Shown here in pieces: positions 1-60,509 of a stretch of DNA of 64,000 bases; the first letter of the stretch is position 1; the number at the start of each line of letters is the position of its first letter. Position numbers and translations under genes: made by a program. Under the pieces are notes generated by a model, which had not been told where the DNA came from, ran no database searches, and saw only the letters and a program-made list of their open reading frames with translations. The stretch comes from Ligustrum vulgare (lineage: Eukaryota; Streptophyta; Magnoliopsida; Lamiales; Oleaceae), in assembly GCA_963555705.1 (NCBI GenBank), contig OY743190.1:10329501-10393500 (forward strand), given 5' to 3'.

Positions 1-692
1 TGTTATGCTTTGTCATAACTTATATGCTTTAATGTATGATTATGAGAAATTTTTTAAGAAAGAAAACGAGTGTTGAGCATAATGGGAACAATATGATTTT
101 ATTGAAAATTAAGTAATGGATATTATGTTGAGTAAATGAATTATGCCTCTATGTTGAAGAGAAATTTATTATGAAGTTTGGCTTTGTGAATAAATTTTGG
201 GAATATGATTTATGGCATATATTTATAATTATGAGTAGTCTTTTGAGCCAATTAAGGTATGGAAGGAAGTGATATTGTGATATTGAAAAATATGATTTGA
301 AATTGTTATGTTGAGGAATTATGAATTGAATTATGGGATATTTTGATGATATTGAAGTGTTGGAATCGTTTTCAATATTTTTAGATCGTTGTGATCAAAT
401 GTGGAGTTATTTATTATTGTGAGTTATGAAGTATGCTTATGGTTTGGATAAGTCCAAATTACAAGGGAAACTCTGTCCAGAATGTTATCCTTTGGAATTA
501 AGAGCATGATATGATAAGCATCCACTAAAGGAATTAAGGTTAGACATGCAAGTACATTTATATCACAAACGAGATTTGGTTGATGATAGCAGAGATTTTA
601 TTATTTTCTCATAAGGAGAACACACAAGAGTCACACTGGAAAGGAAATACATGAAACACATGAAAGCATAAGAGAAAAACATGGAAAGATCC

Positions 693-925
693 TCAGAATG
701 AGAGATGTGTTTCCGGAGTAGCCGTATCCTACCACCTCTGATCTTTTGAGGATATAAAGAGAAAACCTTCAAAGAGGTGTGTTTCGAGAGTAAGAATACT
801 CCGTAATCTACCACCTGGAATCTTTGAAGTACACACAAGATTTAAACATTAAGGAAATCCTAGTAAATGGAGGGGTGTCTCGAGAGTGAGAATACTCCGT
901 ACTCTACCCCCACCTATTCTAAGAT
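693..925. repeat. Three imperfect repeats just beyond the LOG stop codon
   Basis: Three diverged units of roughly 70-80 bases share the core gagaatactccgtactctac. Cores lie near 705-740, 777-815 and 880-915. They sit directly downstream of the LOG stop codon and could act in 3' end formation of the minus-strand transcript, but that is inference. The repeat recurs at 7389-7621. Confidence 0.6.
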
Positions 926-1579
926 TCAAAGAGTTAAATTTACATTAACCGGACTCCATTTTCGCTTGATTCCCCTTCCTTGCGACCAATCTATCTTAAC
1001 TCCTGCTGGATCTTGTATTGAGATATATGACTGCAGCTTATCCAGTAGTTCATCAATAGTAGGAGCAGAAATAAGAAGCCTTCTGAAAAATGGAGAGATG
1101 AATCCCTGTTCCACAGCATAATCAAGAAAGGTTAACAAACCATCAAAGAAATTGTTAACATTCAGAAGCCCAATAGGCTTAGTATGGAGATCTAGTTGAG
1201 CCCACGAGGTAATGTTAAAGATTTCTTCTAAGGTACCAAAACCTCCGGGCAGGGCTATAAAGGCATCAGAACCATATAACATACAAGTTATGCGTTCATG
1301 GATGGATAAGGTTTGAACTTCATGCCCTCGTGTTTTGCCTGCAACATCTACCAAAGGGACAGGTATGACACCGATTACTTTTGATTTCTCTGCAAGAGCA
1401 GATTGGGAAACACAACCCATTAGACCACTGCTACCACCCCCATATACAAGAGTGATACCTTTTTCCCCCAGTTTCTTTCCAAGATCTACAGCCGCTTCTA
1501 GATAACCGAAGCCTTTCCCTACTTTTGATCCACAAAATACACAAATAGTTTTGATCTGTCGAAGTTTTGGTGCTTCCAT
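926..1579 (-). CDS. LOG-like: LOG-family cytokinin riboside 5'-monophosphate phosphoribohydrolase, retrotransposon cargo (copy 1)
   Basis: The product is 217 residues, the normal length for plant LOG proteins, in one uninterrupted exon. The family releases free cytokinin bases from their riboside 5'-monophosphates in the cytosol. Visible family marks are VCFCGS-type start TICVFCGS (11-18), VYGGGSSGLMG (45-55), HERI (94-97, holding the family arginine; the usual following lysine is isoleucine) and PGGFGTLEE (111-119, with the catalytic glutamate). The last 25 residues are basic and not typical. Plant LOG genes normally have several introns, so an intronless copy suggests capture from mRNA. It lies antisense to the retrotransposon, 300 bases downstream of a second minus-strand ORF. 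The start at 1579 is the first ATG before the conserved domain. It is probably a functional-length enzyme; activity is not shown. Confidence 0.88.
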   Translation of the reverse strand: MEAPKLRQIKTICVFCGSKVGKGFGYLEAAVDLGKKLGEKGITLVYGGGSSGLMGCVSQSALAEKSKVIGVIPVPLVDVAGKTRGHEVQTLSIHERITCMLYGSDAFIALPGGFGTLEEIFNITSWAQLDLHTKPIGLLNVNNFFDGLLTFLDYAVEQGFISPFFRRLLISAPTIDELLDKLQSYISIQDPAGVKIDWSQGRGIKRKWSPVNVNLTL

Positions 1580-1653
1580 CTTTGATAGTAAAGAAGGGAA
1601 AACTTACGAAGAAGATGTGATTTTGGGATGCCTGAACTATGAAATATGTTTGG

Positions 1654-1663
1654 CTATTTAAAG
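1654..1663 (-). promoter_or_regulatory. TATA-like box for the LOG ORF
   Basis: On the minus strand this reads CTTTAAATAG, 75 bases before the LOG ATG and inside the short palindrome GGCTATTTAAAGCC. A start site about 30 bases downstream would leave a leader of about 45 bases. An almost identical box precedes the other minus-strand ORF. A GTAAGT sequence at about 1604-1609 is a potential splice donor in the leader. Confidence 0.45.
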
Positions 1664-1879
1664 CCGGAAAAATTTACTGTTTTTGATTGATTCTGAAAAA
1701 GTAAAGATTTACTTTTGACAAAATCAGCCCACTTTTGAATATTTTTATCGTATAGAGGCTGTCACCTTTCGGCGATTTAATATTTTATTTCCAGCTTTAT
1801 CAAAACTCGAGAAAAGGAAAATATATTTTATTTTCAAAACGCGTGAAAGAAAGCAGCAAAATATTTTAAAAGATTTACC

Positions 1880-2431
1880 TTATAACATTGCTGAACTGCC
1901 AGAAGCCTCATTTTGTAAAACAGACTGGCAAACAGGATCTTTTGCTATTATATTTTGGAGACTATAACGATTTTTGTCCTCGTTAAACTGAGCGTATAAG
2001 GAGAGAAGTTCACGTTGTACATAACCACTTGGGTGCGTCTCAAGAGTCAGTCGAATATCATCCAAAGACTCCTTACTCAGTCCACCCTTTATGAATTCGA
2101 TTTTATCATCCCGATTAGTAGAAGAATATCCTACTGATTTGCAACGAGTATTACAGTTCCAACGAGCACATTTGTAGCAACCACCCAGTCTTTTTGCTCT
2201 TCGTTTCTTTGCAAAAGTGCTTTTGCCTAAACCAGGCATGTGCTTTGGAAATGTTGATGGTAATTCACCAGATAGTCGAACCTTTGCTTCTATCAACCAG
2301 CGAACATCTTCTGGAACACCATGAGCCATCAGCAACCTCAATCTTTCGAGCCTTATTTTATAGATCTTTCTCAGATCATTCATAGGAAGACTGGAATAAT
2401 ACTTGCGAATGTTAGAAAGGATGATATCCAT
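1880..2431 (-). CDS. Basic Cys-cluster protein, retrotransposon cargo (copy 1)
   Basis: The ORF is 183 residues from its first ATG at 2431; five more codons are open upstream, starting at TTG. I do not recognise it with certainty. It has a helical, charged N-terminal half, then a lysine/arginine-rich stretch STFAKKRRAKRLGG followed at once by a compact cluster C-x2-C-x4-C-x3-C (CYKCARWNCNTRC), then FIKGG and an acidic, polar C-terminus. A basic tract followed by a Cys cluster and a short hydrophobic/glycine motif resembles the layout of the small Cys-rich nucleic-acid-binding proteins of Betaflexiviridae (carlavirus and vitivirus types), although the cysteine spacing differs. RNA or DNA binding is plausible; silencing suppression is speculation. 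It lies upstream of LOG on the same strand. It could instead be a plant gene fragment. Confidence 0.6.
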   Translation of the reverse strand: MDIILSNIRKYYSSLPMNDLRKIYKIRLERLRLLMAHGVPEDVRWLIEAKVRLSGELPSTFPKHMPGLGKSTFAKKRRAKRLGGCYKCARWNCNTRCKSVGYSSTNRDDKIEFIKGGLSKESLDDIRLTLETHPSGYVQRELLSLYAQFNEDKNRYSLQNIIAKDPVCQSVLQNEASGSSAML

Positions 2432-2463
2432 TGTTTGATGATTCAACCTCTTCCCAGCATGAA

Positions 2464-2474
2464 CTATTTAAAAG
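2464..2474 (-). promoter_or_regulatory. TATA-like box for the Cys-cluster ORF
   Basis: The minus strand reads CTTTTAAATAG, 33 bases ahead of the ATG at 2431. It nearly matches the box ahead of LOG (CTTTAAATAG). The spacing implies a very short leader if the box is used. Confidence 0.4.
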
Positions 2475-3008
2475 CGCAAGGATATGAATGAATCCGCGTG
2501 ATTTGTGTTACAGTAAGAAAGGATGGAATAAAATAATGGATAAGAGGAGACAAGAATTAATGCGCCGTTCACTTTCTTAATAAAAGAAAGATTTGATGAT
2601 GGGATTTGAGATTTGGAATATTTTCTTGGATTATGGGTACTGATATTTTGTTATAATAATGATAATCATGGTATAGTGTGTTGATACGTGGAAAGTGAAT
2701 TGGAGACCGTATCGAATTAGAGTTAATACGTATATACAAGTGAAAGAAATACTTTGCAGGAAATGTGGTGACATTTAAGTATAGAATCTTAGTTTTGGGA
2801 GATATTTGTTTACTGAATTTTGAGTTACAAATATTGGAAAGATAAGTTGATGATATTATGTTGATATGTTTGGGTATTTTACGTAGAGAAAATATTCAGG
2901 TAATTCTTTGATTATTTTGAGAATATTCGATGATAAGAAGAAGAGATTTTGATTAAGTATTCAGAAATTATAAGACCAAGTAAGTTTAATTTCGAGGACG
3001 AAATTATT

Positions 3009-3023
3009 TTAAGAGGGTAAGAT
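3009..3023 (+). promoter_or_regulatory. Polypurine tract before the LTR
   Basis: The sequence ttaagagggtaagat lies directly before the LTR start TGTAGCG, and just after ttcgaggacgaaat. The same arrangement precedes the LTRs at 9720 and 45544. It is the expected plus-strand primer site of a gypsy element. Confidence 0.7.
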
Positions 3024-4654
3024 TGTAGCGATCAAGATTTTTACGCAATTTTATAATTATTTTAATATTTAGAAAATTGTGTCGCTACTATTTCACTCAT
3101 TGTTTTGAAATTAACGCCGCGACGAATTCGTCTAGCCAAGTCAAGAAATATCGAATTTGTTCGATTTTAAATTAAATTTCCGAATTTCTAAAATTATATT
3201 ATTTTAATTATTTATTCAAAGTATTATTTTCAAAATCTTTCTAAAATCCAAATTTTTGCCCACATGTCTTTTTCTTTACACCAAGACAACAATTCTTTAC
3301 ACAAAAACATCATCATTTTTGTACAAATAATTTTACATCATTTTCCATTTCATATTATACCTAATTCTACACTATCATATTCTATAGTACCAAATCAATA
3401 CATATTCTTCCCCATCACAACTCACGTCCCCTACATTTTTTCTTCCTTCTTTATCATTCTTTCCACCTCAATATACCATCATCAAAGCATCTTCAACATG
3501 GACACACAAAGCACCATCATTTTATCTCCATCATTACACCATTTTCTCTTCACTTTCCACTTCATTTCCAACCCATACTCATCAGCAACTCCACCTACTT
3601 CAATTCCACAATATACTAAAATCAAGCAGCAATCAACTGATGAACCATGGACATACAATCCACCCTCAATTCTGTACCAACACCAACCCCAATTTTATCT
3701 CCACCAGCAGCAGCCACCTCCTCGATCAGAAACCATCAGCAGCCACCATTTACCACACATAGATCAACCTACAGCAAGCCATAACTGTTTCATCACTGCA
3801 ACCACTGATCTACCAACCAAACCACCACCCTCTGCAACTCACAGCCGAATCCACTACCAATACTGCCATCCACAACCACTAGTTAATCAATTCATCAATC
3901 CGGCCAGTTTCCTCCATTCAACTACATCCAATTCAATTTCCATTTTCAGAATTCCCATTTGCAAGATCAACAATCTCAGCCATTATCATCAATTCTGATA
4001 TCCTGCAATCACCATCTTCATCATCACTGCAGCAAATTTCCACCACCGGTATCATCATCCTCAAACACCAAATTGAATCAGCGTTCATCATCATCAATCA
4101 AAATTGAGCACCACCACCGCACTCAGTCGAGAACCCAAAACACCATCACCATCATACAACCTCCATCATCGCCACACCCAAACCACCCTGCTTCCTTCCA
4201 AGTTAGATCACCACCACCACAATCCACGCAGTCACCACCGCCTACTGCATAATCCAGTCAATCACCACTGCCGGCCAGTCCACACCGAATCACTGCACAA
4301 CATTCCTCCAAAAATCAAACTCAAACCTAGAAGAAAAGATAACCCATAACCCTAGAAACCCTTTTCTTACCTCAATCGTAGGTCCCTTCGCCGGAAATCG
4401 GGATCTAAGCCGTTGTTTTACATTCGGTTTTCACACCCAAAAGCCTACCAAAACTTGAACCGCCGCTTTCCGCCACCCTCGCTGACGTCTCGCCGGCACA
4501 TCACCGGCTGCAGCACCCTTTTTACCCTAAGCGTTCGTCGTCGCCTGCCTTTCATCTCCAGATCGCCTTCGCCATTTGAGAGAGAGAGAACGTTGAGAGA
4601 GAGTTAGGATCTGATTAGGATATTTGATTTTAATATTTAAACTTTCAGAAATTT

Positions 4655-4990
4655 CACTTTAGTCCCTAGCCTAATTATGTTTTAAAGATTCAGTCCCTAA
4701 GTTTACAAAATGTTTTATGTCGGTCCTTTCAGCTTTAAATCTTTTTAATTCAGTCCCTTAAGTTCTAAATGATTTTAATCAGCCCTTTCATTTTCAAAAT
4801 CTGATCACTTCAGTCCCTGCTGATTTACTTTTAAGCTCAAGTTTCAAAAGTATTCATTTGAATCCCTCAACTATCAAAAGTATTCATTTTAGTCCCTCAA
4901 CTTTCAAAATATCCAATTTGGTTCCTTCAACTTTCAAAAGTATTCATTTTAGTCCCTCAACTTTCAAAACATCAATTTTAGTCTTCAAAT
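4655..4990. repeat. LTR minisatellite built on 'tttagtccctcaactttcaa'
   Basis: About nine imperfect units of 30-40 bases contain agtccct. The regular part is 4850-4970. The array recurs at 11351-11690, and a diverged relative occurs in the LTR at 47095-47300. Confidence 0.7.
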
Positions 4991-5363
4991 TATAATTTAT
5001 CATTTTGAACTATATATTCGATAGACTAAAGTGACTTATTGGCTAAGACGAAGCGTACGGAGAATTTAAAGAAATTGAAGTCATTCCCGCTCAACTTTGC
5101 ACTCGTCGGATTTGAGGTAGACTCGCACTTATTAATTGATTTAAATTATGATTTCATATGAATGTCATGTGACTTGTGAAAGTCAATTTTTAAGAAAAAC
5201 AAATATGTTTTTATGAAAGGTAAATATACCTTATGTTGTTATGAAAAGTAAGTATGTTTTTTTTTATGAAAAGAAAATATACTTTATGTTTTTACGAAAA
5301 GTAAGTATACCCTATGTTTTTACGATAATGTTTTATATGTTTTGGATCATTGCTATGCACATA

Positions 5364-5760
5364 AGAATTCTTACCACCTAAGTTCGGTAGAATTCTGTGT
5401 CTCCATAAGTTTATGAGGATTTACCACCTAAGTTCGGTAAAATTCCTGTCTTTCCATATGTTTATGAGGATTTACCACCTAAGTTCGGAAAAATTCATGT
5501 CGCGTATGTTTATGAGGATTTCGATCCTATCTTATGTTATGATGGAAATGATCCCTATGAATTTCATGAATTATGTTTTGGTATACTTACTGTTATTATG
5601 ATTTTACTACATAAGAATTCTTACCACCTAAGTTCGGTAAAATTCTTATGTTTATGAGGATTTCGATTTTATCCTATGTTATGATGAAAACTTATTGTTA
5701 TTATGATTTTACTGCATAAGAATTCTTGCCACCTAAGTTCGGTAAAGTTCTTGTGTCTCC
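5364..5760. repeat. Five hairpin-forming repeats in the LTR
   Basis: The core taccacctaagttcggta occurs five times (near 5370, 5420, 5470, 5610 and 5726). It is flanked by agaattc and gaattct or close variants, so each unit can fold as a hairpin with an 8-9 base loop. Units are joined by tatgtttatgaggattt. The array is repeated at 12062-12460. Confidence 0.7.
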
Positions 5761-6424
5761 CTATGTTTATGAGGATTTCAATCATATCTTATGTTATGCT
5801 TTCAAAAGAAATTATGCTTGGCATAATTAAAATGTTTTTATAAGTATATGGTTTTCAAAGAGCTATTTTCAAAGAGCCTATGATTTGCAAAATATGTCCC
5901 GTGCTGTAATGCACAATATGAGTTTTATCAAGAGCTGTTTTATAAAGAAGCTCTATCAATGCCCATTTTATAAAGAGCCGGGATTTATGTGTTTAATCAT
6001 CTTATAAATTAAATTAATTTGCGATGAGTCTACTGAGTATTTCCCCCATGAAATACTCACCCTACTTTTTAACAGTTTTGCAGATTTCGGAGACGGTGGC
6101 GAGCGATGAATGATGGTGGCAATAATCGTTAAACGGTTGAAAGTTTGACGTTAATGATTTCCGTATTTTCCAAACAATCGAATAATTTAGAGAAGTTCAT
6201 TTATTTGAGAAATTATGATATTGGCAATTTCTTTACAATATTAATGGTTCGATTTACTATTTCAAATGGTTTCATAAATGTTTTCAATTTTAGCGGCCAT
6301 TACAGTTTATTTAATGTTGCCAAAAATGAATTTCAATTATTTCTTCCGCAAAAATATTATTCGAAAAATTTAGACAGAAAATGACGTAGTGAATCGGGTA
6401 TACGGAACTCGGGGCGCTACAAGT

Positions 6425-6436
6425 CGGTATCAGAGC
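6425..6436 (+). promoter_or_regulatory. Primer binding site, initiator tRNA-Met type
   Basis: The sequence cggtatcagagc starts four bases after the LTR end. It matches the complement of the plant initiator methionine tRNA 3' end at 11 of 12 positions. The next bases, gtttctgtagact, are shared with the PBS regions at 42790 and 48031. Confidence 0.8.
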
Positions 6437-7388
6437 TAGTCTGCGTTTCTGTAGACTGGAAAAATTTTCAAAAAGAATTTTCAAGAAATATTTTTCATTA
6501 TAAGATTTTTATTTATGAAGATTGCCACTGCCATCATTTCGCTCCACCAACTCCGAGGTAAAGAAGTTTATAATGTTTAAAGTTATTTCAGTATTTCGAA
6601 TACTCATTTTATTGATTTATGAGAAAGAATGAAGAGTATTTCGGATACTTATGATTTATGAGAAATAAGAATGTATTTCTTCGAAAATAATGATGTTGTT
6701 ATGCTTTGTCATAACTTATATGCTTTAATGTATGATTATGAGAAATTTTTTAAGAAAGAAAACGAGTGTTGAGCATAATGGGAACAATATGATTTTATTG
6801 AAAATTAAGTAATGGATATTATGTTGAGTAAATGAATTATGCCTCTATGTTGAAGAGAAATTTATTATGAAGTTTGGCTTTGTGAATAAATTTTGGGAAT
6901 ATGATTTATGGCATATATTTATAATTATGAGTAGTCTTTTGAGCCAATTAAGGTATGGAAGGAAGTGATATTGTGATATTGAAAAATATGATTTGAAATT
7001 GTTATGTTGAGGAATTATGAATTGAATTATGGGATATTTTGATGATATTGAAGTGTTGGAATCGTTTTCAATATTTTTAGATCGTTGTGATCAAATGTGG
7101 AGTTATTTATTATTGTGAGTTATGAAGTATGCTTATGGTTTGGATAAGTCCAAATTACAAGGGAAACTCTGTCCAGAATGTTATCCTTTGGAATTAAGAG
7201 CATGATATGATAAGCATCCACTAAAGGAATTAAGGTTAGACATGCAAGTACATTTATATCACAAACGAGATTTGGTTGATGATAGCAGAGATTTTATTAT
7301 TTTCTCATAAGGAGAACACACAAGAGTCACACTGGAAAGGAAATACATGAAACACATGAAAGCATAAGAGAAAAACATGGAAAGATCC

Positions 7389-7621
7389 TCAGAATGAGAG
7401 ATGTGTTTCCGGAGTAGCCGTATCCTACCACCTCTGATCTTTTGAGGATATAAAGAGAAAACCTTCAAAGAGGTGTGTTTCGAGAGTAAGAATACTCCGT
7501 AATCTACCACCTGGAATCTTTGAAGTACACACAAGATTTAAACATTAAGGAAATCCTAGTAAATGGAGGGGTGTCTCGAGAGTGAGAATACTCCGTACTC
7601 TACCCCCACCTATTCTAAGAT
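7389..7621. repeat. Three imperfect repeats beyond LOG copy 2
   Basis: This is the second copy of the array at 693-925, offset 6696. Confidence 0.6.
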
Positions 7622-8275
7622 TCAAAGAGTTAAATTTACATTAACCGGACTCCATTTTCGCTTGATTCCCCTTCCTTGCGACCAATCTATCTTAACTCCT
7701 GCTGGATCTTGTATTGAGATATATGACTGCAGCTTATCCAGTAGTTCATCAATAGTAGGAGCAGAAATAAGAAGCCTTCTGAAAAATGGAGAGATGAATC
7801 CCTGTTCCACAGCATAATCAAGAAAGGTTAACAAACCATCAAAGAAATTGTTAACATTCAGAAGCCCAATAGGCTTAGTATGGAGATCTAGTTGAGCCCA
7901 CGAGGTAATGTTAAAGATTTCTTCTAAGGTACCAAAACCTCCGGGCAGGGCTATAAAGGCATCAGAACCATATAACATACAAGTTATGCGTTCATGGATG
8001 GATAAGGTTTGAACTTCATGCCCTCGTGTTTTGCCTGCAACATCTACCAAAGGGACAGGTATGACACCGATTACTTTTGATTTCTCTGCAAGAGCAGATT
8101 GGGAAACACAACCCATTAGACCACTGCTACCACCCCCATATACAAGAGTGATACCTTTTTCCCCCAGTTTCTTTCCAAGATCTACAGCCGCTTCTAGATA
8201 ACCGAAGCCTTTCCCTACTTTTGATCCACAAAATACACAAATAGTTTTGATCTGTCGAAGTTTTGGTGCTTCCAT
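7622..8275 (-). CDS. LOG-like: LOG-family cytokinin riboside 5'-monophosphate phosphoribohydrolase, retrotransposon cargo (copy 2)
   Basis: The protein is identical to that of the copy at 926-1579: 217 residues, PGGFGTLEE at 111-119, one exon. This copy lies in the complete element between two LTRs. Identity to copy 1 reflects recent duplication and is not by itself evidence of selection. The intact frame in an element that has lost gag and pol does suggest that the cargo was recently functional or recently captured. Confidence 0.88.
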   Translation of the reverse strand: MEAPKLRQIKTICVFCGSKVGKGFGYLEAAVDLGKKLGEKGITLVYGGGSSGLMGCVSQSALAEKSKVIGVIPVPLVDVAGKTRGHEVQTLSIHERITCMLYGSDAFIALPGGFGTLEEIFNITSWAQLDLHTKPIGLLNVNNFFDGLLTFLDYAVEQGFISPFFRRLLISAPTIDELLDKLQSYISIQDPAGVKIDWSQGRGIKRKWSPVNVNLTL

Positions 8276-8349
8276 CTTTGATAGTAAAGAAGGGAAAACT
8301 TACGAAGAAGATGTGATTTTGGGATGCCTGAACTATGAAATATGTTTGG

Positions 8350-8359
8350 CTATTTAAAG
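8350..8359 (-). promoter_or_regulatory. TATA-like box for LOG copy 2
   Basis: The minus strand reads CTTTAAATAG, as at 1654-1663, 75 bases before the ATG. Confidence 0.45.
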
Positions 8360-8575
8360 CCGGAAAAATTTACTGTTTTTGATTGATTCTGAAAAAGTAA
8401 AGATTTACTTTTGACAAAATCAGCCCACTTTTGAATATTTTTATCGTATAGAGGCTGTCACCTTTCGGCGATTTAATATTTTATTTCCAGCTTTATCAAA
8501 ACTCGAGAAAAGGAAAATATATTTTATTTTCAAAACGCGTGAAAGAAAGCAGCAAAATATTTTAAAAGATTTACC

Positions 8576-9127
8576 TTATAACATTGCTGAACTGCCAGAA
8601 GCCTCATTTTGTAAAACAGACTGGCAAACAGGATCTTTTGCTATTATATTTTGGAGACTATAACGATTTTTGTCCTCGTTAAACTGAGCGTATAAGGAGA
8701 GAAGTTCACGTTGTACATAACCACTTGGGTGCGTCTCAAGAGTCAGTCGAATATCATCCAAAGACTCCTTACTCAGTCCACCCTTTATGAATTCGATTTT
8801 ATCATCCCGATTAGTAGAAGAATATCCTACTGATTTGCAACGAGTATTACAGTTCCAACGAGCACATTTGTAGCAACCACCCAGTCTTTTTGCTCTTCGT
8901 TTCTTTGCAAAAGTGCTTTTGCCTAAACCAGGCATGTGCTTTGGAAATGTTGATGGTAATTCACCAGATAGTCGAACCTTTGCTTCTATCAACCAGCGAA
9001 CATCTTCTGGAACACCATGAGCCATCAGCAACCTCAATCTTTCGAGCCTTATTTTATAGATCTTTCTCAGATCATTCATAGGAAGACTGGAATAATACTT
9101 GCGAATGTTAGAAAGGATGATATCCAT
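8576..9127 (-). CDS. Basic Cys-cluster protein, retrotransposon cargo (copy 2)
   Basis: This is the same 183-residue product as at 1880-2431, with start ATG at 9127 and cluster CYKCARWNCNTRC after KKRRAKR. The stop codon is followed at once by GGTAAAT on the minus strand, a possible splice donor. The 300 bases between this ORF and LOG could therefore be leader, intron or promoter; the sequence cannot decide. Confidence 0.6.
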   Translation of the reverse strand: MDIILSNIRKYYSSLPMNDLRKIYKIRLERLRLLMAHGVPEDVRWLIEAKVRLSGELPSTFPKHMPGLGKSTFAKKRRAKRLGGCYKCARWNCNTRCKSVGYSSTNRDDKIEFIKGGLSKESLDDIRLTLETHPSGYVQRELLSLYAQFNEDKNRYSLQNIIAKDPVCQSVLQNEASGSSAML

Positions 9128-9159
9128 TGTTTGATGATTCAACCTCTTCCCAGCATGAA

Positions 9160-9170
9160 CTATTTAAAAG
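9160..9170 (-). promoter_or_regulatory. TATA-like box for Cys-cluster ORF copy 2
   Basis: The minus strand reads CTTTTAAATAG, as at 2464-2474. Confidence 0.4.
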
Positions 9171-9719
9171 CGCAAGGATATGAATGAATCCGCGTGATTT
9201 GTGTTACAGTAAGAAAGGATGGAATAAAATAATGGATAAGAGGAGACAAGAATTAATGCGCCGTTCACTTTCTTAATAAAAGAAAGATTTGATGATGGGA
9301 TTTGAGATTTGGAATATTTTCTTGGATTATGGGTACTGATATTTTGTTATAATAATGATAATCATGGTATAGTGTGTTGATACGTGGAAAGTGAATTGGA
9401 GACCGTATCGAATTAGAGTTAATACGTATATACAAGTGAAAGAAATACTTTGCAGGAAATGTGGTGACATTTAAGTATATAATCTTAGTTTTGGGAGATA
9501 TTTGTTTACTGAATTTTGAGTTACAAATATTGGAAAGATAAGTTGATGATATTATGTTGATATGTTTGGGTATTTTACGTAGAGAAAATATTCAGGTAAT
9601 TCTTTGATTATTTTGAGAATATTCGATGATAAGAAGAAGAGATTTTGATTAAGTATTCAGAAATTATAAGACCAAGTAAGTTTAATTTCGAGGACGAAAT
9701 TATTTTAAGAGGGTAAGAT

Positions 9720-12700
9720 TGTAGCGATCAAGATTTTTACGCAATTTTATAATTATTTTAATATTTAGAAAATTGTGTCGCTACTATTTCACTCATTGTT
9801 TTGAAATTAACGCCGCGACGAATTCGTCTAGCCAAGTCAAGAAATATCGAATTTGTTCGATTTTAAATTAAATTTCCGAATTTCTAAAATTATATTATTT
9901 TAATTATTTATTCAAAGTATTATTTTCAAAATCTTTCTAAAATCCAAATTTTTGCCCACATGTCTTTTTCTTTACACCAAGACAACAATTCTTTACACAA
10001 AAACATCATCATTTTTGTACAAATAATTTTACATCATTTTCCATTTCATATTATACCTAATTCTACACTATCATATTCTATAGTACCAAATCAATACATA
10101 TTCTTCCCCATCACAACTCACGTCCCCTACATTTTTTCTTCCTTCTTTATCATTCTTTCCACCTCAATATACCATCATCAAAGCATCTTCAACATGGACA
10201 CACAAAGCACCATCATTTTATCTCCATCATTACACCATTTTCTCTTCACTTTCCACTTCATTTCCAACCCATACTCATCAGCAACTCCACCTACTTCAAT
10301 TCCACAATATACTAAAATCAAGCAGCAATCAACTGATGAACCATGGACATACAATCCACCCTCAATTCTGTACCAACACCAACCCCAATTTTATCTCCAC
10401 CAGCAGCAGCCACCTCCTCGATCAGAAACCATCAGCAGCCACCATTTACCACACATAGATCAACCTACAGCAAGCCATAACTGTTTCATCACTGCAACCA
10501 CTGATCTACCAACCAAACCACCACCCTCTGCAACTCACAGCCGAATCCACTACCAATACTGCCATCCACAACCACTAGTTAATCAATTCATCAATCCGGC
10601 CAGTTTCCTCCATTCAACTACATCCAATTCAATTTCCATTTTCAGAATTCCCATTTGCAAGATCAACAATCTCAGCCATTATCATCAATTCTGATATCCT
10701 GCAATCACCATCTTCATCATCACTGCAGCAAATTTCCACCACCGGTATCATCATCCTCAAACACCAAATTGAATCAGCGTTCATCATCATCAATCAAAAT
10801 TGAGCACCACCACCGCACTCAGTCGAGAACCCAAAACACCATCACCATCATACAACCTCCATCATCGCCACACCCAAACCACCCTGCTTCCTTCCAAGTT
10901 AGATCACCACCACCACAATCCACGCAGTCACCACCGCCTACTGCATAATCCAGTCAATCACCACTGCCGGCCAGTCCACACCGAATCACTGCACAACATT
11001 CCTCCAAAAATCAAACTCAAACCTAGAAGAAAAGATAACCCATAACCCTAGAAACCCTTTTCTTACCTCAATCGTAGGTCCCTTCGCCGGAAATCGGGAT
11101 CTAAGCCGTTGTTTTACATTCGGTTTTCACACCCAAAAGCCTACCAAAACTTGAACCGCCGCTTTCCGCCACCCTCGCTGACGTCTCGCCGGCACATCAC
11201 CGGCTGCAGCACCCTTTTTACCCTAAGCGTTCGTCGTCGCCTGCCTTTCATCTCCAGATCGCCTTCGCCATTTGAGAGAGAGAGAGAACGTTGAGAGAGA
11301 GTTAGGATCTGATTAGGATATTTGATTTTAATATTTAAACTTTCAGAAATTTCACTTTAGTCCCTAGCCTAATTATGTTTTAAAGATTCAGTCCCTAAGT
11401 TTACAAAATGTTTTATGTCGGTCCTTTCAGCTTTAAATCTTTTTAATTCAGTCCCTTAAGTTCTAAATGATTTTAATCAGCCCTTTCATTTTCAAAATCT
11501 GATCACTTCAGTCCCTGCTGATTTACTTTTAAGCTCAAGTTTCAAAAGTATTCATTTGAATCCCTCAACTATCAAAAGTATTCATTTTAGTCCCTCAACT
11601 TTCAAAATATCCAATTTGGTTCCTTCAACTTTCAAAAGTATTCATTTTAGTCCCTCAACTTTCAAAACATCAATTTTAGTCTTCAAATTATAATTTATCA
11701 TTTTGAACTATATATTCGATAGACTAAAGTGACTTATTGGCTAAGACGAAGCGTACGGAGAATTTAAAGAAATTGAAGTCATTCCCGCTCAACTTTGCAC
11801 TCGTCGGATTTGAGGTAGACTCGCACTTATTAATTGATTTAAATTATGATTTCATATGAATGTCATGTGACTTGTGAAAGTCAATTTTTAAGAAAAACAA
11901 GTATGTTTTTATGAAAGGTAAATATACCTTATGTTGTTATGAAAAGTAAGTATGTTTTTTTTTTATGAAAAGAAAATATACTTTATGTTTTTACGAAAAG
12001 TAAGTATACCCTATGTTTTTACGATAATGTTTTATATGTTTTGGATCATTGCTATGCACATAAGAATTCTTACCACCTAAGTTCGGTAGAATTCTGTGTC
12101 TCCATAAGTTTATGAGGATTTACCACCTAAGTTCGGTAAAATTCCTGTCTTTCCATATGTTTATGAGGATTTACCACCTAAGTTCGGAAAAATTCCTGTC
12201 GCGTATGTTTATGAGGATTTCGATCCTATCTTATGTTATGATGGAAATGATCCCTATGAATTTCATGAATTATGTTTTGGTATACTTACTGTTATTATGA
12301 TTTTACTACATAAGAATTCTTACCACCTAAGTTCGGTAAAATTCTTATGTTTATGAGGATTTCGATTTTATCCTATGTTATGATGAAAACTTATTGTTAT
12401 TATGATTTTACTGCATAAGAATTCTTGCCACCTAAGTTCGGTAAAGTTCTTGTGTCTCCCTATGTTTATGAGGATTTCAATCATATCTTATGTTATGCTT
12501 TCAAAAGAAATTATGCTTGGCATAATTAAAATGTTTTTATAAGTATATGGTTTTCAAAGAGCTATTTTCAAAGAGCCTATGATTTGCAAAATATGTCCCG
12601 TGCTGTAATGTACAATATGAGTTTTATCAAGAGCTGTTTTATAAAGAAGCTCTATCAATGCCCATTTTATAAAGAGCCGGGATTTATGTGTTTAATCATC

Positions 12701-13120
12701 TTATAAATTAAATTAATTTGCGATGAGTCTACTGAGTATTTCCCCCATGAAATACTCACCCTACTTTTTAACAGTTTTGCAGATTTCGGAGACGGTGGCG
12801 AGCGATGAATGATGGTGGCAATAATCGTTAAACGGTTGAAAGTTTGACGTTAATGATTTCCGTATTTTCCAAACAATCGAATAATTTAGAGAAGTTCATT
12901 TATTTGAGAAATTATGATATTGGCAATTTCTTTACAATATTAATGGTTCGATTTACTATTTCAAATGGTTTCATAAATGTTTTCAATTTTAGCGGCCATT
13001 ACAGTTTATTTAATGTTGCCAAAAATGAATTTCAATTATTTCTTCCGCAAAAATATTATTCGAAAAATTTAGACAGAAAATGACGTAGTGAATCGGGTAT
13101 ACGGAACTCGGGGCGCTACA
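9720..13120 (+). repeat. LTR of LOG-carrying retrotransposon (3' LTR)
   Basis: This LTR of 3401 bases, TGTAGCG to CGCTACA, nearly matches 3024-6421. After 13120 the sequence changes to tatttacttatgcagg, where the array ends. No PBS follows, unlike the LTR at 3024. Confidence 0.9.
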
Positions 13121-13329
13121 TATTTACTTATGCAGGTAATCATTAGTATCAAGCATCAACTATTAAGCCTTGAAAGAGCCATTTACCAATGTATATAAAC
13201 TAACTTTCTAAATTCTGTTTCTGTTGCATTGTGACGATTGAGTAACTATTATTGAAAATCATCTTCCATTCGTTCATCGATTTTATTTTCTTTCATCAAT
13301 TTTCGTAATTGGTATTTAGTTTGTATCAG

Positions 13330-21008: not shown

Positions 21009-22846
21009 ATGGCAGCTAATAACATCAACAACAGAACTCTTAAACAACTGGCTATGCCCGATGTTGCTCAGCAGCCATTGTATATTACGTTTCCAACGGT
21101 GGAAGAAGGAAAAACTTTTGAGCTTAAATATGGGCTCATCCACTTGTTACCGACTTTTCGAGGGAACCCTGGTGAAGATCCGTATAGACACCTAAAGGAG
21201 TTTCATGTGGTTTGCGACAGTATGAGACCCACGGGCATTACGGAGGAGCAAATAAAAATGAGAATTTTCCCATTCTCATTGAAGGATGCCGCCACCAACT
21301 GACTTTCTTGTCTATCATCGGGAACATTTACTACTTGGAACGACATGAAAAGACTTTTCTTGGAAAAATACTTCCCTGCCTCGAGAGCTGGTACCATCAG
21401 AAAGGAGATATGTGGGGTGCGCCAGAACAACAACGAAACATTGTACGAGTATTGGGAGCGTTTCAAGAAAGAAATTTTAAAACTGTTAGGAGCAGGGATG
21501 ATTTACCCAATTTTAGACAGCAAGTGGATTAGTCCAATACAAGTGGTGCCCAAGAAATCTGGAGTAACAGTGGTAGAAAACAAGGATGGAGAACTTGTAC
21601 CGACTAGGGTCCAAATTGGATATCGGGTATGCATTGACTACAGGAAGGTAAACGCCGACACTCAAAAGGATCACTTTCCCCTTCCCTTCATGGATCAAAT
21701 GTTAGAAAAATTAGCTGGTCATTCACATTACTGTTTTTTAGATGGTTTCTCTGGATATTTTCAAATTACCATTACTCCAGAAGATCAAGAGAAAACCACA
21801 TTTACTTGTCCATTTGACACGTTTGTATATAGACGCATGCCCTTCGGCTTGTGTAATGCTCTCGCAACATTCCAACGTTGTATGATGAGCATCTTTTCTG
21901 AATATATAGGACAAATTATAGAGGTGTTCATGGATGATTTTAGTGTGTGGGGTGACTCATTTGACGCATGCTTGGAGAATTTGTCATTAATTTTGAAACG
22001 ATGCATTGACACTAACTTAGTCCTAAATTGGGAGAAATGCCATTTTATGGTAGATAAAGGAATTGTGTTAGGTCATGTAGTGTCGGAAAAGGGGATAGAA
22101 GTTGATAAGGCTAAGGTGGACATCATATCTGCATTACCTTACCCCGCCAATGTGCTGCATATACGATCTTTTCTCGGGCATGCAGGTTTTTATCGCAGGT
22201 TTATCAAGGACTTTTCCAAAATTGCATCACCACTGTGCAATTTGTTGCAAAATGATGTACCATTTGAATTCACCGAGCTGTGCAAAAAGGCCATTGACCA
22301 ACTGAATGAGCAGCTGACTACGCCCCCGATCATTCAACCACCGATCTGGGATCTTCCATTCGAAATAATGTGTGATGCCAGTGACTATGCACTGGGAGCA
22401 GTCTTAGGGAAACGGGTTGGGAGAGCGGCCCATGTGATTTACTATGCCTCCCGAACCCTGAATCAGGCCCAATCAAACTATACCACCACTGAAAAGGAAC
22501 TTCTATCTATGGTATTTGCTTTAGAAAAATTTCATCCTTATTCATTGGGTTCTAAAGTAATTATTTTTACAGACCATGCAGCATTAAGGCACTTGTTTGT
22601 AAAGAAGATGCAAAGCCAAGAATCATCCGCTGGATACTCTTATTACAAGAATTTGACTTGGAGATCAAGGATAAGGCAGGGTCCGAAAATGTAGTTGCCG
22701 ACCATCTTAGCAGGGTAGTGAAATCCGAAGACGACCTACCTCTGGGTGAAACCTTCCCAAATGAGGGTTTATTTGGTATCGAGTCGAATCCCCCATGGTA
22801 TGCTGATTTGGTTAATTACATGACTTCTAAACTAATTCCTTACTAG
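21009..22846 (+). pseudogene. Athila gag fragment fused in frame to reverse transcriptase / RNase H
   Basis: The frame opens with MAANNINN and a gag segment (LLPTFRGNPGEDPYRHLKEF). TGA at 21300 interrupts it where the family has tryptophan. It continues in the same frame through LFLEKYFPASRAG and YEYWERFKKEILK, then runs straight into RT (LLGAGMIYPILDSKW). The rest of gag, the zinc knuckle and the whole protease are missing. RT is otherwise well kept: YRVCIDYRKVN, PFGLCNA and the active site VFMDDFSVWG. RNase H follows with CDASDYALGAVLG and TTTEKELL. A frameshift near 22650 moves the end of RNase H (VVADHLSRV) to another frame, which closes at 22846. Confidence 0.88.
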
Positions 22847-41693: not shown

Positions 41694-42460
41694 TTGTCAT
41701 TTGAGCCATTTAATGTATTGAAGGAAGTGATATTTTGATAATGGAAACTATGATTTGAAATTGTTATGTTGAGGAATTATCAATTGATTTTTTTTTCTGG
41801 GATATTTTTGGTGTTGTTGAAGTTTGTTGGGATTGTGTTGATATTTTAAATCGTTGTGGTAAATGTGGAGTGTTTAAGATTGTTATTGTTGGTTATGCAA
41901 ATAATGTAGTGATATTCTCTTCTTATTCATAAGCATCATAAAATGAGTGCAAATGAACATATTATTGTCTTGTCTCATGCTAGCAAATAAGTTATGACGT
42001 GCATAACATAAATTCTCAAATTTATCTCATATGAGATATTCTTGTCTTTTCTCATGCAATTAAGCATATAAAAATCACACAAATCCACATAAATACGTGC
42101 AATTATAGTCTAAATTAATTAGTGGGGGCGAGTCTACTGAGTATTTCATTTTGAAATGCTCACCCCATTATTTTAACAAATTTTGCAGATTTCGGAGACA
42201 GTGGTGAGTGATGGGCAATGGCGGCAAATTATAAATTGATATGATTTTTTTTTTTAAAGTCGTGAATTTCGAAATAATTATTTCATTTTATCAAGAATTT
42301 TCATTTTAAATAAATTTGTACGAATTATTTCATCTGAATTATCGCTAAACTTTTATTCAATAAATGTGATATTTAATATTTAGTCATTCTTCCACAATAA
42401 AGTTTATTCAAAATTTAGAAAAGTGGCGTTCCCGCGTTTCACGGAACTCGGGGCGTTACA
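41694..42460 (+). mobile_element. Fragment related to the LOG-element internal region joined to an LTR 3' end
   Basis: 41700-41890 resembles 243-430 (gaaggaagtgatattgtgat, gaaattgttatgttgaggaa). After about 41900 the sequence is LTR-like, with gcgagtctactgagtatttc, gcagatttcggagaca and the end ggggcgttaca at 42460. A deletion has joined the two. No PBS follows. Confidence 0.6.
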
Positions 42461-42790
42461 GCAGTGGAAAAATCAGAAATAATGTTAATTTTCTTTTTAA
42501 GTCAAGCTTTATAAATGTCATCAATTTAATTATTTATCGTTACTTTACTTTAAAACTTAAGATTTAATTTTATGGATTGTTTTAATTAAATTGATTAAAA
42601 TTTAGTTTCCGCTTTAGCTTTTAAATAATAATTGTGATATTTACAAAAATTCAATTATTTTTCGAAAAATGTTGTTTCAAATGTTTCACATAATAAATAT
42701 GATGTTTGAAATTTTTAATTATTTTCACAATAAAATCAGATTTAGAGGACGACATGACGTCCCGGGCTTCGCGGAATTCAGGGCGTTACA
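42461..42790 (+). repeat. 3' part of a gypsy LTR (5' LTR of the gag-bearing element)
   Basis: It ends cagggcgttaca and is followed by PBS-like tggtatcagggtggg (42794 onward) and the shared leader gtttctgtagact. The LTR start is missing. Confidence 0.65.
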
Positions 42791-42793
42791 GCG

Positions 42794-42804
42794 TGGTATC
42801 AGGG
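42794..42804 (+). promoter_or_regulatory. Primer binding site, initiator tRNA-Met type
   Basis: tggtatcaggg lies three bases after the LTR end, one change from the tggtatcagag seen at 48033. Confidence 0.7.
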
Positions 42805-43133
42805 TGGGTGTACGTTTCTGTAGACTTGCAAATTTTTAAAAGAGAATTTTTTTTTTTTAAAAAAAATGTTTTGATGAAAAGTGCCACTGCCACTGCCATT
42901 GCCCGCTTCGCCAACTCAGAGGTAAAGAAAGTATATTTAGAAATGATGAATTATTTTGGATACATGAGATTATTTTTAAGAGAATTTAGAGAAGAAAGAG
43001 CTTGTATCCAACCAAAAAACGAGTTTGAGCATAATTGAAAATAATAAAGATTTTATTTTACGTCCTCGTAATTTAACTTAGAGAGATTAAAGAACTTATC
43101 CCTAATTGGACTTTGCATAATTGATTTTAGGAC

Positions 43134-43694
43134 ATGACATCAAGTTCCAAGAACGTATCTAGTTACGCAGAAATAGCCGCTAGGGACTATGACAATTTTA
43201 AACCTAGGCCAGAATGGAATATCAACCAGCATGTTGGGCAAGAAAGCTACTTACGTAATCGAGCAATACAACACGACTACGTGACCAATGACTTCCAGTC
43301 GATCAGTCATTTGATCTCGTCCTTTCCGGATAATACACGAGATATAGTTCGCTTGATATACATAGACGCGAATACTTCCATTAACGTGGATCTTGACTAC
43401 GACTCGTTTTGTGAGAGACTTGTGGCATACTGGCCTATATACCACAAGGATATTTTGGGATTCTCTCCTGGTGAGACGCCAGCACCCGAGTCCGAACCTG
43501 GACAGGAAGCTTAGTTGGTGCCCGAGAGTGATCCCGAGGAGGACCCAGAAGAAGATCCGGAAGAAGAAGAACCTGAAGAAGATCTGGAAGAAGAAGAAGA
43601 AGAAGAACCAGAAGAAGACCCAGAAGAGGAAGACAATGAGCTAGTGCTAGAAGAGTTCTCGGATGCCGAGTCATGCGTGACCGAAGGAGAGTAG
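43134..43694 (+). pseudogene. Extra ORF upstream of gag, acidic C-terminus, one stop codon
   Basis: From ATG at 43134 the frame reads 126 codons (start MTSSSKNVSSYAEIAARDYD), meets TAG at 43512, and stays open to TAG at 43692. The second part is almost all glutamate, aspartate and proline (PEEDPEEEEPEED). Total length would be about 186 residues. It precedes gag by 200 bases. Tekay-type elements normally begin coding with gag, so this is an additional reading frame of unknown role. The early stop is TAG, one C-to-T change from CAG. I do not recognise the N-terminal domain. Confidence 0.6.
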
Positions 43695-43890
43695 AGAGAT
43701 AGAGTGGAGAGTAGTTTTGGCATTTTTTTTCAAATTCAAATTGTTCATGCCTTTCTATTCATGTACCCTCATTAAGAGAAGTTGAGTTATTAATAAAATA
43801 ATACTTTGGTTTCCATTTTTTGAGTTATTTCTTATCTCTATACGTTGTTGGAGTCCAACCCTTACAAACTACTTTTATTTTATTAAGGAT

Positions 43891-44844
43891 ATGGCCAGAC
43901 GTGCTAATAGAAGTATAATGGACCGCGCTACTTCAGAACAGGCCAACCCAGAGCAGGGCCCCACGGCCCAGTCCACGGCTATCAGGGACCTACTTCAGGC
44001 AGTACAAAGTTTGAGGCAAACTCCTGCAGTTTCCACAGTGCCGATGATAGAGCAATTCAGAAGATACCGCCCACCCACTTTTGATGGCAGAAATGGTCCG
44101 CTAGCGGTTGAGGAATGGCTATAAACTATCGAGAGAATCTTCAAGCACATATCTTGCCCTAAGGATAAGAAGGTTTTATGCCATGAGTTCATGTTAGTCG
44201 GGAGGGCTGGCTTTTGGTGGGAGTCCGCATCGCGGACTAGAACCGAAGTAGAACAGGAAACTCTAACTTGGGATGAATTTAAAGCTGAAATCAAAGACAA
44301 ATTCTTCCCACAAGCCCTTCGAGATCATAAGGAGACGGAGTTTCTGCATTTGAATCAGGGAGAGATGGACATAATAGATTATGAGAGAAAGTTCGAGGAA
44401 CTATCACGGTATGCTCCACACCTGGTGGAGATTGAGGCTAAAAATGCTCGTCGATTTGAGAGAGGCTTACGCTCGGAGATCAAACAAATTGTTAGTTCAC
44501 ATTAGCTGCCTACCTATCAAGAGGTTGTAAGGAAAGCTCAAGCTGTAACTTATGCTAGAGTGAAGTATGGAGGACAGGGTTCCGAGAACAAGCATGATAA
44601 AAGAAAATGGCAGAACCACAATCGAGATCGGAACGCGAACGAGAGCAACGCTCCTAACAAGAAACTCAACAATAAGCCTAATGGAGTACAGACATTGAAT
44701 TTTACTCCCTTATGCCCTAAATGTTATAAGCCCCATCACGGGGAATGTCTATGGGGTAAGGGCGTTTGCTACAAATGCGGGAAGTCGGGTCACATGGCAA
44801 AGGATTGTCGAGCCAGGTCAGCTGGGAATGAAGGGAAGACATGA
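43891..44844 (+). pseudogene. gag: Gypsy gag polyprotein with zinc knuckle, two internal stops
   Basis: One frame starts MARRANRSIMDR. It contains the retrotransposon gag core (YRPPTFDGRNGPLAVEEWL, then FEERL-type LSRYAPHLVE) and a CX2CX4HX4C zinc knuckle CYKCGKSGHMAKDC near 44770-44810, preceded by a second Cys/His cluster (CPKCYKPHHGEC). TAA at 44122 and TAG at 44503 interrupt it and TGA at 44842 ends it. All three are single C-to-T changes from CAA, CAG and CGA. Gag would package the element RNA. After it, the protease, RT and integrase are missing apart from a short relic. Confidence 0.88.
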
Positions 44845-45006
44845 AAGGCCAGGGTATTCTCTATGACCTATAACGACGCCAATCGAGATTCTGATGCGAG
44901 CCCAGGTATACTATCAACATCTCTATATTTTCATAAAAACTCCGATGAAGCATATTATCTGAAGCATGCCTAGCTAGCTCCCAACTAGTAATATTTTGAG
45001 ATTAGT

Positions 45007-45158
45007 ATGCCATACGAAGGAACGATTGATACCGATCTAATAGCTAGAAAGATACTGATAGATTTCGATGGCTTAGTTTTGGGAGTAGATTTACACGTAA
45101 TTGAAATGACTGATTATGATGCTAAGTCCATGTCCTTAGAAATCGAAAAGTTCCCTTA
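45007..45158 (+). pseudogene. Protease relic, active site lost
   Basis: It is in the same frame as gag. A stretch resembling the start and end of a gypsy protease (ARKILIDFDG ... LHVIEMTDYDA) is joined without the middle, and the D-S/T-G catalytic triad is absent. The rest of pol is deleted up to the LTR. Confidence 0.45.
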
Positions 45159-45543
45159 GTCAAAGTCCAATGGGATAGATATAATAAAGTTGAGGCATTT
45201 GAGAAAAAAATGAAGAATATATTCTTACCAAATACACAGGCCTCCCAGAATAAAAGAGTTAAATTTCGAGGACAAAACGAATTTAATAGCGCTCTCGTCT
45301 AGTCATATTAATTATTTTAAGATTTTAAGAAAAGAAATTTAAATTCGTTCAAATCTTTAAGTCCAAATTTTGATTTTAAAATTTTCCCAGTTCATTATTT
45401 ATTTTTAAAGTCCAACAGAGTAGACATGACAGTGATAAAACTACCTAGAAAAGAAAGAAGAAAATTTTGGTCTATTGCCCAAATATTTTTAGATCAAGAA
45501 AGTTTAAAATTTCGAGGACGAAATTATTTTAAGGTGGTAGGGT
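45159..45543 (+). other. Remaining 3' internal region with polypurine tract
   Basis: The phrase aatttcgaggac occurs twice (45270 and 45511). The second leads to attttaaggtggtagggt and then the LTR. No RT or integrase is present. Confidence 0.6.
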
Positions 45544-48030: not shown

Positions 48031-48032
48031 GG

Positions 48033-48112
48033 TGGTATCAGAGTGGGTCTACGTTTCTGTAGACTTGCAAATTTTTAAAAGAGAATTTTTTTTTTAAAAA
48101 AAAGGCGCCTTT
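48033..48112 (+). promoter_or_regulatory. PBS and leader fragment after the LTR
   Basis: tggtatcagag and gtttctgtagacttgcaaat continue to about 48100, then are cut by foldback fragment C. Confidence 0.7.
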
Positions 48113-49102: not shown

Positions 49103-49119
49103 GGAGTATGATACCACGC

Positions 49120-60404: not shown

Positions 60405-60509
60405 TTATTTTGGTGTTAGTTGAATTTTGTTGAATTCTTTTTATTTATTTTTTATTTTTTTATTTTTTTATTTTTTCTCTACTACTATTTTTGATATTGT
60501 CCTTTGTTT

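Follow-up and report, generated by a model that had tools for sequence, protein, structure and literature searches.

An antisense cassette pairing a LOG-like gene with a virus-like gene in gag-pol-less LTR retrotransposons of Ligustrum vulgare

The window analyzed here is a stretch of 64,000 nucleotides from Ligustrum vulgare (contig OY743190.1, positions 10,329,501 to 10,393,500 of the forward strand), and it opens with two units of a long terminal repeat (LTR) retrotransposon in which two small minus-strand genes stand in place of gag and pol. One encodes a LOG-like protein, and the other a protein resembling the nucleic acid binding, cysteine-rich proteins (CRPs) of plant viruses, which we call NABP. 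On the minus strand NABP comes first (2431-1880) and LOG follows (1579-926). The genes and the parts of the element are these:

926-1579, minus strand: LOG-like gene of unit 1, 217 codons, intronless
7622-8275, minus strand: LOG-like gene of unit 2, 217 codons, its protein identical to that of unit 1
1880-2431, minus strand: NABP/CRP-like gene of unit 1, 183 codons, ATG at 2431
8576-9127, minus strand: NABP/CRP-like gene of unit 2, counterpart of the unit 1 gene
about 590-2745, minus strand: cassette common to two element types (approximate extent; blast match 663-2745)
3011-3022, plus strand: polypurine tract (PPT), just 5' of the LTR; unit 2 counterpart at about 9707-9718
3024-6421, plus strand: LTR, starting TGTAGCGATC and ending GGGGCGCTACA (TG...CA)
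6424-6436, plus strand: primer-binding site (PBS), reading TCGGTATCAGAGC in the window's element
9720-13120, plus strand: final LTR of the array (TG...CA), with the target-site duplication (TSD) TATTT directly after it at 13121-13125

Positions 1-6421 are 99.9% identical to positions 6697-13120 (6,424 columns), and a search of the whole genome shows that these two units are the last of an array in which five cargo copies are spaced 6,696-6,697 bp apart. The array, with six LTRs and five internal regions, extends from C23:10305737 to window position 13120 (C and L numbers are our handles for sequences and loci). Because the same 5-bp duplication, TATTT, flanks its outer LTRs on both sides, the array represents one insertion that turned into a tandem, most simply, we infer, through unequal recombination. 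Same-strand pairs about 6.5-7.1 kb apart recur among 40 scored cargo copies (on C1, C2, C7, C8, C9 and C14), so tandem arrays are not peculiar to the window.

Terminal direct repeats (TG...CA), a PBS, a PPT and a 5-bp TSD together identify the element as a non-autonomous LTR retrotransposon. Its internal region (6422-9719) holds no gag or pol, and beyond the two genes no stop-to-stop frame longer than 108 codons, short frames lying outside the Pfam scan. In 95 listed places outside the array (100 of 2,020 places were listed) the PBS reads TTGGTATCAGAGC, which we take to be the complement of the initiator Met tRNA. An earlier note on this DNA had described a gypsy element with near-identical 3.4 kb LTRs, lacking gag and pol and bearing LOG in both visible units. 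The LTRs, the missing frames and both LOG genes stand as described; the two units prove to be the end of a five-unit array, and the gypsy label derives from LTR length, PBS and PPT, which presumably resemble those of Tekay-like gypsy elements, in an element without a pol gene.

LOG proteins are cytokinin riboside 5'-monophosphate phosphoribohydrolases, i.e., cytokinin-activating enzymes. As the same note had claimed, an intact, intronless gene of 217 codons lies antisense in both units, and the encoded protein belongs to the LOG family by its match to Pfam PF03641 (E=3.4e-33) and by its PGGxGTxxE motif (PGGFGTLEE); it also matches structure 2a33 (E=3.8e-57) of At2g37210, which we take to be LOG3. 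A tree of 52 proteins separates the window's LOG and 31 TE-type (transposable element) matches, so named from the query set and with element context observed for this genome alone, with 100/100 support from 20 cellular proteins, all of LOG1/LOG3 type. The further proposal that LOG derives from an mRNA fits the intronless frame; because LOG forms a separate clade and has its own TATA-like box (see below), an old, already mobile LOG gene is equally likely.

The NABP protein matches two Pfam families of viral proteins above their curated cut-offs: Viral_NABP (PF05515; E=4.2e-07, 30.6 bits, cut-off 23) and Carla_C4 (PF01623; E=4.6e-06, 26.9 bits, cut-off 20.9). It has 349 homologues, 120 of them listed, and we aligned 38 selected from these 120 with the window's protein (n=39). 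At E 0.001, 37 of the 39 match Viral_NABP (best 3.4e-9) and 35 match Carla_C4; the stretch KKRRAK is near-invariant and is followed by cysteines, of which one never varies and three hardly do; a second invariant Cys lies close to the end of the protein. A basic stretch followed by a cysteine motif is likewise the arrangement in the CRPs of carlaviruses, vitiviruses and allexiviruses, with which NABP is likely homologous, through a possible viral origin or a transfer the other way; unlike theirs, the NABP gene lies in the DNA of a family of retrotransposons, where neither a flexivirus replicase nor a coat gene adjoins it. An endogenous flexivirus was considered and rejected: since no frame exceeds 108 codons besides the two genes, the internal region has no replicase or coat gene.

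Both genes occur in thousands of copies. With up to 3 mismatches allowed, a 33-base marker for LOG is found at 6,459 places in the genome, against 0 for the reversed control, and the window-type LTR/PBS junction (up to 1 mismatch) at 2,020, as expected of a cargo that is multiplied with its element, which was the earlier proposal; these places and the five-unit array dispose of the possibility that LOG is limited to the two window units. With the LOG of a relative as query, 8,983 first-look candidates were obtained, and the best 150, which were scored, were all free of stops. Among loci L001-L038, LOG adjoins NABP in 38/38 (part of NABP in L014), and NABP is full-length in 33, even though L009-L038 were selected by LOG alone.

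The cassette occupies two distinct element backbones. Eighteen of the 38 loci resemble the window's element outside the cassette too; the other 20 match it solely over 663-2745, at about 80% identity (blast). The ends of this second element type, read in two of the 20 loci (L041, the same place as L034; and L037, with L039/L040), show LTRs about 235 bp long (aligned lengths 214 and 237 bp) that are 99.5-99.6% alike within the two copies, TSDs of CCAAG and AACAA, and a PBS and PPT that differ from those of the first type. Here as well the cassette is antisense, and no gag-pol frame is present (L041, frames of at least 120 codons). The second type's PBS and 3' repeat motif are presumably copia-like, and the window contains no match to the motif. 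The LTR/PBS junction of this type is found at 2,454 places. In the first 30.4 Mb of C1, the exact LOG marker lies 1.7-2.3 kb downstream, on the expected strand, in 24/40 second-type junctions and downstream in 9/17 window-type junctions, both lower bounds given that only zero-mismatch markers were counted.

Shared between the two types are also candidate control signals, all on the minus strand:

1654-1662, minus strand: TATA-like box TTTAAATAG upstream of LOG (unit 2: 8350-8358, a 6,696-bp offset)
2464-2472, minus strand: TATA-like box TTTAAATAG upstream of NABP (unit 2: 9160-9168)
872-914, minus strand: stem-loop 1, on the 3' side of the LOG stop
775-817, minus strand: stem-loop 2
701-739, minus strand: stem-loop 3, a variant form, outside the covariation count

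The box is exact upstream of LOG in 6/8 aligned cassettes and upstream of NABP in 7/8; because each gene has its own, transcription of the cassette without the LTR is probably feasible. A splice-donor-like AAGGTAAAT directly after the NABP stop in 8/8 aligned cassettes, and GTAAGTTTT before LOG in most of the eight, were also seen; a spliced NABP-LOG transcript might make use of them.

The stem-loops are better conserved between element types than the spacers between them. Against five second-type cassettes, and computed over aligned letters with shared gaps not scored as matches, the window is 84% identical in NABP, 89% in LOG, 79% in the intergenic region (22% gapped), and 92, 89 and 97% in the three stem-loops, with 79% in one spacer and 87% in the other, which is 27% gapped; the flanks are far less alike, at 63% upstream of NABP and 56% beyond the stem-loops. 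The stem-loop array keeps its 2+1 form in 34/35 sequences from 34 places, L041 and L034 being the same place and L001-L005, L039 and L040 being excluded, with L036 showing 1+1; of the 22 LTR-selected copies that carry LOG, 21 have it too. In loops 1 and 2, over all 27 distinct strings, 91.9% of cells pair, vs. 40-66% for slid partners, and five pairs change on both sides, in 14 cells vs. at most 10 for any slid version. The number of pair types is unremarkable (131 of 500 shuffles), the shuffles leaving relatedness in place and the tested strings coming from the sequences in which the fold was seen. The hairpins are thus well conserved and pair well, with moderate support from covariation. A known Rfam RNA was rejected as their identity, with two weak matches, both elsewhere and under the gathering score.

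Divergence between the two types reveals purifying selection on both proteins. By the NG86 method, and over pairs that are not independent, mean dN and dS are 0.0351 and 0.4502 for LOG (dN/dS 0.078; 19 x 18 sequences, 342 pairs; dS range 0.34-0.52) and 0.113 and 0.6174 for NABP (dN/dS 0.183; 16 x 18 sequences, 288 pairs; dS range 0.41-0.78). Choosing L009-L038 by LOG protein score biases the LOG value and not that of NABP; a start-motif filter removed L010 and L023 of the 38 loci from the codon alignment of LOG and five of the 38 (L009, L014, L019, L020 and L031) from that of NABP, and L039-L041 were excluded. These ratios, together with the Pfam matches, rule out chance open reading frames (ORFs). 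In close pairs (dS below 0.03) the ratios are higher (LOG 0.31, NABP 0.44), as they should be if copies drift once inserted.

A sample blind to the cargo gives the same picture. Twenty-five loci (L047-L071) were picked by LTR/PBS junction, all on C1, the first listed after the array and including two tandem pairs; they are young copies. LOG is present in 22, with 0 stops and 0 frameshifts in the 2,603 codons of the stretch read, and shows 49 synonymous and 23 non-synonymous differences from the window, 22 of the latter being the single site of codon 165, where the window departs from all 22 copies. In 10 of the 22 that were read further, the N-terminal half of LOG is open in 10/10 (pooled dN/dS 0.017), and NABP is open over the covered part in 10/10 and complete in 7/10 (pooled dN/dS 0.19); the few indels all fall outside the genes. 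Copies broken at neutral rates, which would have counted against the earlier note, are thus not what these copies or the between-type ratio show. What it had not seen are the NABP gene, the stem-loop array and the second element type, which together point to an accessory module that serves the element and not to LOG alone.

We give roughly even odds (about 0.5) to the reading that this two-gene accessory cassette, antisense and in place of gag-pol, serves the element that carries it. The cassette would be transcribed independently of the LTR, probably from its own TATA-like boxes. NABP, as a zinc-finger relative of flexivirus CRPs, would most likely bind nucleic acid in the nucleus and/or the cytoplasm, and, like its viral relatives, may shield element RNA from RNA silencing and/or act as a transcription factor; silencing suppression is suggested by analogy with those relatives. 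The LOG-like protein would most likely alter cytokinin nucleotide metabolism, or signal through its tail, where the element is active, and so favour dividing cells, while the stem-loop array may stabilise or process LOG mRNA and the replication proteins would be borrowed from an unseen partner element. Viral CRPs are described as silencing suppressors, and one of them, CVB p12, as a transcription factor that induces hyperplasia (PMC12172455); these two outcomes, suppression and hyperplasia, would fit a pairing of NABP with LOG well.

Several observations weigh against this reading. On the side of NABP, the resemblance to viral proteins appears at the level of profiles: the structure model is weak (pLDDT 64, pTM 0.36), and a Foldseek search with it gave no fold match at E 0.001 (best E 0.1). 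In favour of the viral resemblance, though none is significant, plant-virus NABP/silencing-suppressor proteins take ranks 1, 2, 4, 6 and 7 in that search (from Grapevine Kizil Sapak virus, Fig latent virus 1, sweet potato chlorotic fleck virus, Grapevine virus G and Garlic virus A; RNA silencing suppressor is the name of two of the five proteins). A sequence search of the PDB found nothing significant (best E 0.39), and scans of IMG/VR confirmed no relative. Among the stem-loop controls, the version slid by +2 outscores the structure in covariation (0.154 vs. 0.122).

The distribution of the cassette raises further points of this kind. Three of the 25 first-type cargo-blind loci have no cassette, and therefore not every copy requires it in cis. 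Among six second-type junctions without an exact LOG marker (L084-L089), LOG is frameshifted in L084 and L086 and has a premature stop in L089, with NABP open in all three; L088 has lost most of the cassette, and L085 and L087 have none in the stretch fetched, nor a frame longer than 100 codons. Older copies thus decay, and the pattern is one of selection on active copies and not on each insertion. In the few loci that were read, no autonomous gag-pol partner turned up. Loci L053, L063 and L065 (on C1) and L083, a cassette-less derivative, share the LTR end and PBS and carry no cassette; the element of L053 and L083 is also without gag-pol, and must therefore likewise be mobilised in trans.

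The final difficulty concerns cytokinin, and bears on the first alternative: that the LOG-like protein no longer activates the hormone and is instead a nuclear protein, its basic patch and EAR-like LxLxL tail possibly recruiting a TOPLESS-type corepressor, that with its NABP partner reprogrammes host transcription or chromatin for the element. In TE-type LOGs the HxRK Lys, next to a conserved Arg, is replaced in 88 of the 94 sequences readable by a simple pattern, and in cellular LOGs it is retained in 118/118 (26 TE-type and 2 cellular sequences being unreadable). An LxLxL lies within the last 15 residues of 92/120 listed TE-type matches vs. 0/120 listed cellular LOG3-type proteins, a basic cluster within the last 30 residues of 103/120 vs. 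1/120, and the tail is kept in 22/22 LTR-selected copies. The replacement of this Lys and the presence of such a tail weaken the cytokinin idea, and some plant LOGs are reported to yield the riboside instead (PMC11593424). However, PGGxGTxxE is retained in 107/120 TE-type matches, much as in 108/120 cellular ones; LOG is more constrained than NABP, as expected of an enzyme; the window's own tail, VNVNLTL, is a relaxed and not a strict LxLxL; and the cellular set consists of the best matches of a single LOG3-type query. We regard this alternative as unlikely, if still worth keeping in view.

Three other explanations are considerably less probable. If the antisense transcript itself, as double-stranded or structured RNA, were selected and the cassette regulated the element by antisense RNA, this could account for the antisense position in both element types and for stem-loops that are 89-97% alike across types, above the surrounding spacers, with five pairs changing on both sides; roles for antisense RNA have been discussed (PMC7264820). 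But selection on RNA alone would not give the codon-level ratios (0.078 and 0.183) or the open frames of the cargo-blind sample, and we consider it quite improbable. We hold equally doubtful that some copies serve the plant as domesticated LOG or NABP genes, e.g., in antiviral interference, and that this use keeps the frames open: a virus-like NABP could conceivably interfere with viruses, but open frames across dispersed copies and two backbones fit selection at the level of the element, and no non-mobile copy was identified, without a systematic search for one. Finally, that the two genes are passengers, a LOG of the host and a virus-like gene picked up in a single transduction and merely copied since, their intactness reflecting youth, agrees with the young copies, the near-identical LTRs of two second-type copies and the decay of old ones, but is largely refuted by dN/dS far below 1 at the between-type dS values given above and by a pair kept in two backbones and linked in Orobanche.

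Both proteins have relatives in several families of eudicots. Named relatives of NABP, among the matches listed, are from Orobanche, Populus, Xanthoceras and Acer, and those of TE-type LOG include Reevesia, Diplodiscus, Xanthoceras, Populus, Diospyros, Primulina and Parasponia, many matches being nameless. Three Orobanche gene models contain NABP and then LOG, fused, so that their linkage is not peculiar to this genome, and several NABP and LOG matches on contigs of equal size (8,723; 4,511; 2,128) are suggestive of linkage. More tentatively, and with the balance tilting somewhat against it, we propose that a portable module (a virus-like CRP, LOG and a triple stem-loop, with their own promoters) moves between unrelated LTR-retrotransposon superfamilies of eudicots, gives elements without gag-pol an RNA-virus-like programme of anti-silencing and cell proliferation, and drove them to thousands of copies. 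Such mobile cassettes may explain the long lists of LOG-like genes in plant annotations (Reevesia, Populus and Xanthoceras), the element context having been seen in this genome only.

Elements with part of this anatomy were known. Large non-autonomous LTR elements of the LARD type also have LTRs, PBS and PPT and no gag-pol but are described as non-coding, whereas those reported here carry two genes under selection. In 2011, Steinbauerova et al. reportedly noted that some Ty3/gypsy elements of plants have extra ORFs similar to LOG/YgdH. Alvarado-Marchena et al. published LOG (YgdH) domains in Ty3/gypsy elements of Citrus and Populus in 2022 (PMC9289625), so that a LOG-like coding sequence in plant LTR retrotransposons of several species is not new; in contrast to that account, as far as it is available, the present cassette has an NABP partner, two LTR element types, a stem-loop array and an analysis of selection, and those elements were found via their reverse transcriptase, which ours do not have. 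A literature search over titles and the starts of abstracts, in part limited to the best-ranked matches and taking in few subscription papers, found no paper on an NABP/CRP gene in a retrotransposon.

The cassette bears on the question of what antisense extra ORFs do in plant retrotransposons, and it makes directly testable, with two small proteins, whether transposons are equipped with virus-like weapons and tools of hormone metabolism: the proteins are a conserved pair, both under purifying selection in a family of thousands of copies, of which one bears a virus-protein signature and has anti-silencing relatives and the other is related to a hormone enzyme. Known antisense ORFs of plant LTR elements are likewise conserved between species, with their own promoter reported for Grande, but are described as having no clear similarity to known proteins, or to viruses, and lie alongside gag-pol, whereas here two recognisable genes replace it (PMC7264820, a 2020 review, in the part available). 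Comparable cargoes have been proposed to act against host control. Insect long interspersed nuclear elements (LINEs) keep an RNA-virus-type domain, a tobamovirus-like SF1 helicase with weak silencing-suppressor activity, for which an anti-silencing role is proposed, as here (PMC5563155, PMC4686597); the group of viruses, the kingdom of the host, the class of element and the protein are all different from those here, and the helicase is a fused domain and not a separate antisense gene. An AlkB-type RNA demethylase kept as an accessory ORF in an orchid Ty3/gypsy lineage is likewise proposed to counter host control, but is related to plant enzymes and sits in an element with gag and pol (PMC9289625). 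A possible silencing role has been raised for other, DRBM-like extra-ORF proteins in sunflower (PMC11728184), and the available text on an endogenous flexivirus replicase-like sequence in cucumber makes no mention of cysteine-rich or nucleic acid binding proteins (PMC3136472).

Other repeats occur in the window. Within the 3.4-kb LTR, positions 5359-5798 hold internal tandem repeats around the motif TTACCACCTAAGTTCGGTA. Short stretches in 41696-45628 are 71-81% similar to the internal region, the 3' end of the LTR, the PBS side and the PPT side of the cassette element, and probably represent an old, diverged relative of it. At 21345-22694 and 60504-62837 lie cassette-less frames that we take to be degenerate gag/pol of Athila type. 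An inverted repeat (46452-48040 and 49109-50748), with arms of about 1.6 kb that are 90% alike and about 1.1 kb apart, could form a long hairpin RNA or be a foldback element.
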